A stretch of DNA of 64,000 bases from Chrysaora quinquecirrha (taxonomy: Eukaryota > Cnidaria > Scyphozoa > Semaeostomeae > Pelagiidae), in the NCBI GenBank assembly GCA_014526335.1, contig JACTAT010000077.1, forward strand, positions 124,001 through 188,000, in the 5' to 3' direction. Both the position numbers and the translations under genes were made by a program. Below the pieces are notes generated by a model. It was not told the DNA's origin and searched no databases. It was given only the letters and a program-made list of their open reading frames with translations. Positions 167 through 27,600 of the stretch are shown here, piece by piece (the stretch's first letter is position 1; each line of letters starts with the position of its first letter).

Positions 167-3100
167 GCCAGTTTGGAGGGGAAATGTCGGAACTGGATGA
201 TGCGGGTACATATTTCGACTTGGGACCACGGAAGATAACTGGTACAGGCACGTATTTTTACATGAGTACACGGAACAATAATTTCTCTAATAGAAGCCAA
301 AAAGGAAAAATTGTTGTTGTGTCGAATCCGGTAGCTCAGAAGCAGATTGGCTGGGGAGGAGGAAATGTACTGTTGCAAGATGGGTAAGAATTTAAATTTT
401 GAGTTTAATTTCTTTTATCTGTTTATTGATCGATGAATTTTCGCCGGAAGGCTTTGAATCAATGTTAGCCAGTGTTGGGTGAAATTTTGGCTACGCTTGG
501 CCGGGACTTACTAATGATGGAATTCAAAACGTTTCTACGTCTGGTCTACCAGTTCAGTTTTGCCAGGGAAGGGAAAGAAATTGATATAAAATGATTGTCA
601 GTTAGTTCTTGGTTAGCAAATTGAATACACTAAATGAAGGTAATTGAGATCTGAACTTAGTACGGACTTGAAACTCAGGACTTGACACACTTTTGGACAA
701 ACTTAAATAGCGAACGGCAGCGGCAGCGACAGATTACACAACCCGGAAAGACGTTCTTTTTCGGATCAGCATTCCGGGAGAAGGGGGTGCTTAATATATT
801 TTGGGTACTGTGGATGTGCCGCCCAAAAGGGTATCGTTTTTAATGATTTTGGTAAAAACACTGGGAACATTTTTCAGAAAAATGGTATAAATAAGGGTAT
901 CGATTTCTCGAATATCGGTATAAACAAAAAACCGGTCTTATTTCCGTTTGTTTTCACTTTGCTTGGTGAAGTTTGATTCGAACTGACATATTATAGTACA
1001 TTTATGCACATAAAGTAGCGACTGCAATCCTTCACAAAATTATGAGACTTGTCATCAGATTATGAGAAAATGGCCCCTTCCCCTACAGAGCAATGTTGTT
1101 GGTAATCAAGTTGAATTTTTGCGGTACAATGCTTCTCCTAACAACAACATTGCTTGGAGGGGGGTGGGGAGACACAAAATCGAAAAACTGCCAAAAAATA
1201 TACAGTTCGCAAAAATTGACTTGAGTCTCAGTATATTTTGTGAAGGATTGTCTTAGAAGAATGAAAGACTTGTAATTTGGAGTCAGGATAATCTGAAGTG
1301 AAGACTGCTCTCTATTTCGTAAATGACAAGGAAAAGCTATTAGCTCAACAGATTAATGGGTTTCACAATTCGGTTGACCATTTCTGCATACCAATTTGGG
1401 TGGGTGGGGACGTTTTGCAGGGACGTCCAGGGCCAAAGTGACTGTTAGGAATTTTTTAAAACAATTCGGAAAAATTTTTCATAACCACTTTCGGAAGATC
1501 GTTTTCTCTTGTGTAATAAAATCATCATATGTAATCATCATTAGTGTATATAATTATATAACTCTGTAATAATTTATTAGATTTCTGAGATGAGGGTGCA
1601 ATTCCACATTATTCGTTTTCGACGTGTTACCCACGTGTTACTCACGAGTTACTAACGTGTTACTGTGAACACCAATATGCTTTTCAGTGCGATCTGACGT
1701 GTTACCACGAGTTACTCTCTAAATATAGAAAAAATTATTGCTTCTTTTATTTTTTATTTTTTAGCAGTAACTCGTGGTAACACGTCAAATTTTACTGAGA
1801 AGCATATTGCTCTTCCTAGTAACACGTTAGTAACTCGTGGGTAACACGTGAGTAACACGTACGTACATTTATAGATCCTGCTGGGAACAAGAATACATAA
1901 GCTAGTTTACTAAATATATAGTTAAGTAAAGACAATACGAAAATAAATACACAAAACCTTTTCTCAACGTTTTTATAGGTAAGCATAATTACTTAAATGT
2001 TAGCATTCCTTATTGTCCCTAGCATTTCAAAGTCTGTGCGTTGTGATTGTCCTCTCGGGTTCATATCACGAAGATATCACGAAAATTTGCATAAAACAAC
2101 AACAGGAAGTTTACTTTAATTATCTTTCGTTTCGAGAGAGAAACTAATTGCAAGAAATTGCCACAACAGCTCTGCTCTCATTCTCTCTCCCAAATTGCTT
2201 GCAGTTTTTAAAGTCAGTTGAAGATTACACTTGACCTGTCTCATTCGTAAGTAACTTGGTATAGTTATTGCAATTGTACCTACTTTATAATCATTTATGG
2301 ACACATATAGTCAACATCAACTGAATGCAAATTTTATCATGGGCCTAACACGCAGATTGCGTTTGTTTTCCTTATTACAAAACATGTCTCAGTAATACGT
2401 CGTTTCTCCTAATTAGAATCATATATTAAGCGCTAATTATATTCTGTTCCTCTGCCCTAGTACATAATAGTTGCCGAAATAGAAATTAAAAACCAAAACT
2501 GCAACTCATAGAGTAGGGAACCCTTTCACAAACTTTTTAAAATTCAGACAATCCTTCACAAAAATTATGAGACTTGTCATCAGATTATGAGAAAATGGCC
2601 CCCTTCCCCCTACAGAGCAATGTTGTTGGTAATCAAGTTGAAATTTTGCGGTACAATGCTTCTCCTAACAACAACATTGCTTGGAGGGGGGGAGACACAA
2701 AATGGGGAGACACAAAATCGGAAAAACTGCCAAAAAATATACAGTTCGCAAAAATTGACTTGAGTCTCAGTATATTTTGTGAAGGATTGTGGATTTGAAT
2801 GTATATAGGTTTCCTGCTTGTCTGCTTGTCACAGAAATGCTTTATTGCAGACGAAACACGGGAAATACACGTTTTTTTTTATAAGGAACACCTTTATAAG
2901 GAACTCGAGGCTGAAAATTCCCAAAAAATTAAGGAACTTTCGAGGCTCAGATGAAAAACTAAGAAACTCCTTTTTAAAGAACAAGACGGTTTGTACGAAA
3001 AAGGAATATAAGTACAATATATTTCCCATCGTTCTTCCCCAAAAGGCTCCATTTATACTTAAAGTTAGAAATGAAGAATAGTTTCCATGAAATTGCTGTA

Positions 3101-24600: not shown

Positions 24601-27600
24601 GTCATCAACCAATGTTTATCAATTTAATATTCATGGTTATTGCTTATAATTTCTTGAAAAATGTGGGAGCGTGAATAGAAGAGGGGCGATGAGAAGAAAA
24701 TGGACGCTTATAAAGGCGGTGCTTTGTTTCAGCAAGAACTGCAAAATAATTTCATGGACCATTATAATTATTTACGTTAGGCCCTAGCCTAACTTTCAGG
24801 CATTGTTCGACAGTCATGTACATGAAATTCGCAAATTCGTTTGCGAATTGTTTTTTACAAAACACTGCTTGACAAACCGTTTATAGTTTATATATTCTTC
24901 AAAACGCTTTCTGGTTACATAAGGTAAAACATTTACGAGCTATTTTGCTTCGTGGCTTAACTTACGAGCTATTTTGCTTCGTGGCTTTACTTACGAGCTA
25001 TTTTGCTTCGTGGCTTAACTTACGAGCTATTTTGCTTCGTGGCTTAACTTACGAGCTATTTTGCTTCGATGTAGTCACACATTTGCTTTGGTTAGATGTT
25101 TGACAATCAATTTTTGTGTACTTGGTTGGTACCTAAGTACCTAAATAAACGGAGAAACAGTAGTGTATGGGCCCCTGGTCTTGAAAAGTGTAGCGAAAGC
25201 TCTTTCGTTGATCTTGAAGGCGGTGCAAACCATGCCAATATTATTGGCCAACATGTTGCCTTGAAATATTTCAACATGTTTCAACAGTTTGCCATACCAT
25301 TACAACATCTGAGAGGTTTGGAGTTTCTGATGTCATCTATATCAATACGGGAATTGAGCTGCTGTATGTTTATTGCTCTCTCTTTTTATTTAATAACTTA
25401 AAAAATAATGTCCAACTCGGAATAAGATTAAATTGAGGGATGAAGACATTGTTTATGTAAATCTGTACCGTACCAACAAGTCGGTTTTGCCTAAATTGCA
25501 GAAAACGGCCATCATTGGACATGTTAGTTCCACGATTATGCGAAACTTTGATGAACAACTTGTTGCTTGTTAGGCCGACATCTTTAGCAAAGCTTGCCAA
25601 CATGTGGGCAACCAACTGTTTGAAGCTATGTTGGCCAACATGTTGGATCACCCTAGGTAATGTCTGCGCAGTATTGTGGAGGATGTGCAGTAATGTGGAG
25701 GATTTTCGCAGTAATGTGGAGGGTGTTCAGTAATGTGGAGGATATCATCAGTAAGGTGGAGGATTTTTGCAGTAATGTGGAGGATGTTCAGTAATGTGGA
25801 GGCTATCTTTCAGTAATGTGGAGGTGCGCAGTAATGTGGAGGCTATCTTTCAGTAATGTGGAGGATATCATCAGTGATGTGGCGGTTGCGGAGTAATGTG
25901 GAGGCTATCTTGAAGTAATGTGGAGGGCTATCATAAGTAACGTGGAGGGCTATCTTTCAGTAACGTGGAGGATGTTCAGTAATGTGGAGGACTATCTTTC
26001 CGTAATGTGGTGGCTGCGGAGTATTGTGGAGGGCTATCTTAAAGTAATGTGGAGGCTATCATCAGTGATGTGGAGGATATCATCAGTAATGTGGTGGTTG
26101 CGGAGTAATGTGGAGGCTATCTTGAAGTAATGTGGAGGCTATCATCAGTAACGTGGAGGGCTATCTTTCAGTAACGTGGAGGATGTTCAGTAATGTGGAG
26201 GACTATCTTTCCGTAATGTGGTGGCTGCGGAGTATTGTGGAGGCTATCTTAAAGTAATGTGGAGGCTATCATCAGTGACGTGGAGGATATCATCAATAAT
26301 GTGGTGGTTGCGGAGTAATGTGGAGGCTATCTTGAAGTAATGTGGAGGGCCCGAGTAATCAAGAAGCACTCTCGTAGCGGTTGCCGAGAATTTTCGTTTT
26401 TAAACGATTCTCATTGACAAGAAATGCAATTCGGAAGCTAAACCGTGCGTTTTTAGCCATGAGAACCTTCACACTGCTTTAATATTTCATCATATAAGTG
26501 TAAGAATCACAGTTTTGGTTCATTTGCGTAAAATGTCTAATACATATATATTAACAAAACATGAATAAAATATATCTAACATATGATATGAATTATCTAA
26601 TATATGAATATAAATTCGAAGAAGAAAACATTGTTCTTTTTTACAAACGAAGATACAATGAGTTGAGCGATAAACTGATCTGTACATGAATCAGTGGCAA
26701 TTTATTTTGTCTCTCTTCCTCAGTCTAATAGCAAGTTTATTCACGTAATATTTCATTCATGTCGTTGTGGTTATCATTTGACACTAATCAAACAGAAAGG
26801 TCACAAACTAAATAGCAATATTTATCTTTTCTGTTCATAACGTCAATTAAAGTTTTTTTGGGTTTGCAAAAATAGATACTACCTGTAGGAGGGCTTCGAA
26901 ACAAAAACGAATGTGAATACGTTCTGCTGCTATCACGATGTCCACACGCAAAGGGTTGAACAAAGTAAGGCAAACAAGCAGTATTACGTGAATAAGACAA
27001 AATAAATTGCCACTGATTCATGTACAGATCAGTTTATCGCTCAACTCATTGTATCTTCATTTGTAAAAAAGAACAATGTTTTCTTCTTCGAATTTATATT
27101 CATATATTAGATACACACTTTTTTTTTATAAGAATACAGTCTATAAGAATATTCAGGCTCAAAATTGCTGAAATTTAAGAATTATTTTAGAATAATCTGA
27201 GGCTCAAGCTTGACGAGGATAATTTTTATTTCTCTGCGTTTTTTACACTGCACAATAAGTGTGATTGTCAGGCAACTGTATTTGTTTTGAAATGCATATC
27301 ATCCTGTCTGACTCTTTGATACAGTAACTCTTTTATTAATAAAATAGCAAATGACAAAGTGAATATTTCTCTTAGACTTCAGGCCAATTTACAACATTGA
27401 TGATTAAGAATAATTTAAGAATATTTTCAGGCTCAAAATCGAATAAGCTTAAGAATAATCGAGGCTCGGCAAAAAATAAGGTATTCTTATAAAAAAAAGT
27501 GTGTAATTCATATCATATGTTAGATATATTTTATTCATGTTTTGTTAATATATATGTATTAGACATTTTACGCAAATGAACCAAAACTGTGATTCTTACA

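Follow-up and report, generated by a model that had tools for sequence, protein, structure and literature searches.

Do the short words that recur near the ends of a group of small transposons differ as a coordinated set from one family to the next, and, if so, what might read them? The question is raised by a 64,000-nt stretch of contig JACTAT010000077.1 from the 328-Mb genome of Chrysaora quinquecirrha (hereafter, the window), whose first 28 kb hold nine recognisable elements on one plan and one relic. The plan begins with TA and CAC; after a few bases come a T-run, ATAAG and a short word that differs between families. As detailed below, there is strong support for subterminal words that agree with the tip word and differ in concert from family to family.

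The elements are miniature inverted-repeat transposable elements (MITEs), non-autonomous cut-and-paste transposons that duplicate a TA and are mostly 340–440 bp long. Two empty sites are available. Omission of window positions 2866–3228 leaves joined flanks that align to the element at 13068–13444, over 13226–13447, with 186 of 210 columns identical, no gap at the junction and a single TA. Omission of 27112–27505 restores a palindrome arm identical to the other arm at 216 of 217 positions, again without a gap and with a single TA. The elements are short, have terminal inverted repeats and a target duplication, and occur in many copies; no long open reading frame (ORF) was seen inside those of the window. 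The two empty sites also show the TA duplication of Tc1/mariner or pogo, and the candidate superfamilies are the TA-duplicating groups (Tc1/mariner/pogo, CMC-like such as ESTA, or others).

When the words are masked, GGAAC family b (window 15817) and GCAAC family b (window 18227) are homologous, and the right arms of three sister families, GCAAC b, GGAAC b and GAAAC, can be aligned through four sites. For this alignment we used 21 rows of GCAAC b (20 fetched from 40 matches and that of the window), eight of GGAAC b and four of GAAAC. Base 5 of TAAGNAAC in the aligned sites is C in GCAAC b (82 of 84), G in GGAAC b (31 of 32) and A in GAAAC (16 of 16). Between the consensuses, base 5 differs at 4/4 sites, the other bases of the word at 1/28, 1/28 and 0/28, and the spacers at 16/54, 19/53 and 22/52 (30–42%). 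Left arms were compared in seven rows of GGAAC b and three of GAAAC, the left arm of GCAAC b being unreadable; the same A/G switch was observed at the tip and at three inner sites, bar single decayed sites. Because the left tip lies on the opposite strand, the left-arm switch argues against strand-biased mutation.

Genome-wide counts show how common these arrangements are. Exact matches to the tip plan TACACNNTTTTTTATAAG number 1831, and the pattern read in reverse has none; the right arm (TTTATAAGNAAC-N6-8-TAAGNAAC) has 4505 matches (control 1), the left arm (tip word and reversed inner word) 4556 (control 0) and the GAAT-type tip 2401 (control 3). In the search with the element at 6163–6604, 40 of 1509 first-look candidates were scored. 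Position listings of tips and arms are for contig C1, C2 (in part or as a whole) and several small contigs, together a few per cent of the genome. On C1, 77 left and 79 right arms (one of the 80 listed, 2038041, which overlaps 2038026, was left out) form 50 pairs under 600 bp with pattern starts mostly 297–357 bp apart, one of which, at 49 bp, is probably not an element. A rough capture-recapture estimate (77 × 79 / 50 = 122 on C1, scaled by 4505/79) gives about 7,000 NAAC-type elements. Among the GAAT-type tip pairs on C1 and C2, 8 of 36 are only 101–120 bp apart and one more 80 (e.g., C1:1899340–1899480); those of 101–120 bp form a separate miniature size class. No match to TACACNNTTTTTTATAAGNAAC was found in viral contigs.

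The concordance of base 5 holds at this scale as well. Right arms joining G or C at the tip to A or T at the second word number 83 of 4505, and by our arithmetic, from the letter frequencies of 70 printed right-arm strings, independent letters would give about 1000. Of these strings, all on C1, 67 are concordant (shuffled mean 28.4, maximum 45 in 20,000), and T at base 5 occurs in neither word of any. The mixed arms, 3 of the 70 strings and the 83 of 4505 in that one class, may be ordinary decay. One copy, L082, is a composite in which a GAAAC-ended element surrounds a decayed GGAAC-type element. Its reading as a GGAAC backbone with GAAAC words was dropped, as the new ends enclose the decayed older element, and it was not counted as evidence.

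An earlier note on this DNA had claimed that the tip word of each family recurs inside the element, and this was borne out in the window. Each of the nine elements contains its own word 2–5 times, against a background of 0.00–0.05 per 400 bases (window 30001–64000), and a single word of another family was met, GTTTCTTA in the GGAAC element; this count excludes about 30 bases at each end and includes the AATTCTTA variant of GAATA. For a wider sample we took the first 40 of 100 listed tip places in the order of the contigs, irrespective of their words (GTTC 17, GTTT 7, CTTT 4, TGTT 4, TATT 2 and six singletons), and examined the 380 bases inward of each. Of 270 inner words, each the four bases adjoining CTTA, 127 match the tip word. 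Tip words dealt anew give a mean of 35.6 matches, with none of 10,000 trials reaching 127, and shuffled interiors give 0.7. At least two own inner words were found in 28 of the 40 copies, and the match is shown by each of about eight families or words. The earlier note had made its claim depend on inner words matching the tip beyond chance across the genome; they do so, and the finding is real and stronger than that note stated.

Each arm holds about four copies of an 8-base word made of TAAG and a family-specific part, the outermost lying about 14 bases from the end. Right-arm sites stand at approximately 14, 29, 60 and 91 bases from the end, nearly constant among the families read, and left-arm sites at approximately 14, 45, 79 and 90, the inner ones being reversed. 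GAATA and GGAAC a depart from this common spacing with a site near 72. The words had been described as present in both orientations; a reversed copy is found mainly at the left tip, whereas the inner words along the element mostly point one way.

Just inside many of the words a second short motif can be read by eye: GAGGCT in GGAAC a and GAATA, AGGGCT in GCAAC a, AGTACT in one GAAAC family, TAGAACTA in the other GAAAC family and AATACTGG in the GAAAG family. What had been taken for a kept spacer, GAGCCTCGA, acts as part of this second half-site, which differs between families. In eight representatives (33 sites, limited to those of the major orientation that have 12 or more unmasked flank bases) flank likeness is 6.06 within an element vs. 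4.10 between elements, which none of 5000 shuffles reached. Comparison of right-arm with left-arm sites (56 and 48 sites in 30 elements, mid-element sites omitted) gave an own-family similarity of 5.7 vs. 4.1, and 6 of 40,320 family permutations reach 5.7. For GCAAC a and the second GAAAC family this between-arm match is strong; it is clear for GAATA and the first GAAAC family, weaker for GAAAG and a tie for AAGAACA. The second half-site tends to match within families, less uniformly than the first word. As two different second motifs accompany GAAAC, and two different first words accompany GAGGCT, the two halves vary partly independently.

The most economical reading of the words is that they are binding sites for a transposase, and we consider it probable, judging from sequence, that family specificity was split by their concerted change. 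The earlier note had proposed such sites and such a split; tip-matched words that change in concert were indeed found, and binding is what they suggest. The transposase itself is favoured as the binder because the tip word, set at a constant distance from the cut, is one of the words involved. The words would be sites for its DNA-binding domain, a different part of the protein would contact the second, inner half-site, and the synaptic complex would be built from several bound copies. A transposase lineage probably changed its base-5 preference, with the MITEs following to give new families; the letter would switch in concert because efficient mobilisation was then left to those copies in which most sites had changed. 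As a more tentative extension, possible though somewhat doubtful, base 5 could be a discrete address letter (A, G or C) read by paralogous transposases which, with a partly independent second half-site, would make a two-part code that separates transposition systems of common descent in one nucleus.

Several results weigh against the transposase reading. In GGAAC b the third right-arm site is TAAAGAAC in 7 of 8 rows, and 7 of the 40 sampled tips have no own inner word. The half-site is unmatched between arms in GGAAC b and, read one way, in GGAAC a, whose left arm seems to carry the second motif reversed. Within a family the copies are related, and flanks are shared in three of the sampled pairs (L061/L062, L070/L073 and L084/L085), which resemble larger duplications; the permutation figures therefore overstate independence. 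In the small part of the genome checked, no autonomous element or transposase was found linked to these ends.

Concerted evolution without selection is an unlikely alternative source of the pattern. Short conversion or template switching would overwrite the words of an element with the word from one of its sites, and a chance founder would then be amplified, which agrees with the likeness of words within elements and with the existence of a few mixed arms; yet the tracts would have to end at the 8-base word, since the spacers between the same sites differ by 30–42%, and the near invariance of seven of its eight bases points to constraint. That the words bind a host factor is quite improbable. 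The lack of a transposase linked to the ends would suit such a factor, but the tip word belongs to the terminal repeat and changes with the rest, and the factor would need to differ between families of one genome. Shared ancestry alone, with each family descending from a founder whose words matched by chance and had no bearing on transposition, is highly improbable, for although one founder accounts for the match within a family of related copies, the founders of three homologous families would each need at least four sites changed to the same letter, and about eight words show the match. The transposase reading is also of wider interest, since it bears on the general question of how the specificity of a DNA-binding protein shifts together with that of its many scattered sites. 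In the homologous families described here, which number thousands of copies, the end points of such a change would be seen in parallel at every site and mixed copies are few, which makes the evolutionary path testable.

Arrays of subterminal binding sites and diverged subfamilies are of a known kind. A literature search of partial coverage found no description of homologous families whose aligned sites differ by a clean switch of a single letter, and none of these elements. CACTA/EnSpm elements resemble those described here in their CAC tips and in arrays of a short subterminal motif, where TnpA docks; the EnSpm elements read in this genome, however, have different ends, and the one with legible flanks has 3-bp duplications. 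The TA duplication is a hallmark of Tc1/mariner and pogo, which have a few direct repeats vs. the many short sites per arm here. Target duplications are 7–8 bp in Galileo and 8 bp in the hAT element Herves. According to the available text of two reports, short subterminal sites are docking places of the transposase in Galileo (PMC3688188) and Herves (PMC3143072). Galileo, of the P superfamily in Drosophila, has several sites of one DNA-binding domain near its ends (THAP sites, in long terminal repeats), and the domains of its subfamilies bind the ends of other subfamilies weakly or not at all; it is of another superfamily, and the accessible part of the report describes no one-letter switch at all sites (PMC3688188). 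In Herves, from Anopheles, a short subterminal motif near both ends suffices for transposase binding, in one family only as far as the excerpt goes (PMC3143072). ESTA (EnSpm-like, fungi) and PHISTA share the TA duplication, and the CMCT groups mostly have CA..TG termini, but ESTA and PHISTA are known from rust fungi and matched words are not mentioned in the portion available (PMC12730594). The coral CMITE elements, in the extract at hand, likewise comprise several MITE families of one genome that differ at their ends, with a TTAA duplication, piggyBac-type tips and a length of about 100 bp (PMC2872659).

The search for an autonomous partner covered several transposase types. A first look genome-wide gave candidates for DDE_Tnp_4 of PHIS (895, of which 150 were scored), DDE_3 of Tc1 (251, of which 150 were scored), DDE_1 of pogo (108; 81 matches in the profile search) and PF02992 of EnSpm/CACTA (20). 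The regions around 10 of 15 PF02992 matches were fetched. A complete GAATA MITE lies in one of them, and in none do these tips form the ends of an element. An EnSpm/CACTA origin was rejected on these regions, as the ends of PF02992 elements, legible in three copy pairs, differ. No convincing arm pair was found around DDE_1 or DDE_3 genes in the arm lists for parts of C1 and C2. At C2:475948 (DDE_1) a right arm lies 9.6 kb away and has its own partner, a left arm, at a distance of about 320 bp. At C2:849404 (DDE_1) a right arm lies 3.5 kb outside, with no left arm found, and at C1:2381734 (DDE_1) left arms in the right direction lie about 5 and 8 kb away, with no right arm found; these were judged chance without a formal test. 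None of the six DDE_3 matches on C2 below 2.54 Mb is within 10 kb of a listed arm. The tip 2.2 kb from C14:219121 (DDE_Tnp_4) pairs with another tip 378 bp off and marks a separate, adjoining MITE. Long facing arm pairs include one of 1.5 kb on C1; a 2.2-kb pair on C2 represents the ends of two separate MITEs, and no facing pair of 0.7–15 kb occurs among 100 listed GAAT tips. ISL2EU (PHIS) was ruled out, as the duplication here is TA and not the AT in A|AT|T by which, in the available text, ISL2EU is defined (PMC4482050). CMITE and piggyBac were set aside, the TTAA duplication and CCC tips being absent here. DDE_3 matches recur at a regular spacing of about 3.8–3.9 kb at C368:1964587–1986936 and C386:2443262–2455061, and of 12 kb at C326:302911–327226, as in tandem arrays of transposase-like genes.

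The elements of the window lie at, or within about 10 bases of, the places given in the earlier note (Table 1). The AAGAACC at 15829, listed there as a family word of its own, is a decayed GGAAC tip; the other tip reads AAGGAACC and the inner words GTTCCTTA. The element with a GCAAC tip at 5590 does belong to a GCAAC family, with its clear GCAAC tip at the right end and a degraded one on the left, and the GAATA tip at 3364 is the decayed outer tip of a genuine GAATA element.

Table 1. Elements and element pieces in the window
Feature	Positions	Strand	Evidence
GGAAC family a element with its right arm to the left, inside an older GAAAC-type element	2866–3228		Tips, words, single-TA empty site
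Left piece of the GAAAC-type relic split by the 2866–3228 element	2791–2865, outer limit not fixed		Flank alignment
Right piece of the GAAAC-type relic, GTTTCTTA words at 3291, 3324 and 3338	3229–3361		Words, alignment
GAATA family element, outer left tip decayed	3365–3772		Tips, words
GCAAC family a element with a degraded left tip and five GTTGCTTA words inside	5579–5970		Tips, words
GAATA family element, 23-base perfect terminal inverted repeats	6163–6604		Repeats, words
GAAAC family element	13068–13444		Tips, words
GGAAC family b element, left tip decayed	15817–16220		Tips, words, arm comparison
GCAAC family b, right arm only, end at ~18420	18227–18420	+	Tip, arm comparison
GAATA family element, right end missing, truncated at ~20330	19976–20330		Tips, words
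GAATA family element inside one arm of a long palindrome	27112–27505		Empty site in the other arm

No left end was recognised in the window for the GCAAC b arm, and an orphan tip, CACGTATTTTTTATAAGAATACG, stands at 21254 with no partner seen. Matches to the tip pattern are many below 27.6 kb of the window and none lies above, the density being far over the C1 average (77 left arms in 5.1 Mb); 30987–31486 is a run of N. The long palindrome (26496–26712 and 26995–27605) has arms of at least 217 bp that are 99.5% alike, the second broken by the GAATA element, and may itself be a recent mobile element. Farther on, a long repetitive stretch at 56334–58239 holds several overlapping minus-strand open frames with VFIGVHRCSS-like repeats, and minus-strand ORFs at 45247–48522, judged by eye, have the look of a retroelement that includes reverse transcriptase and recombinase parts.

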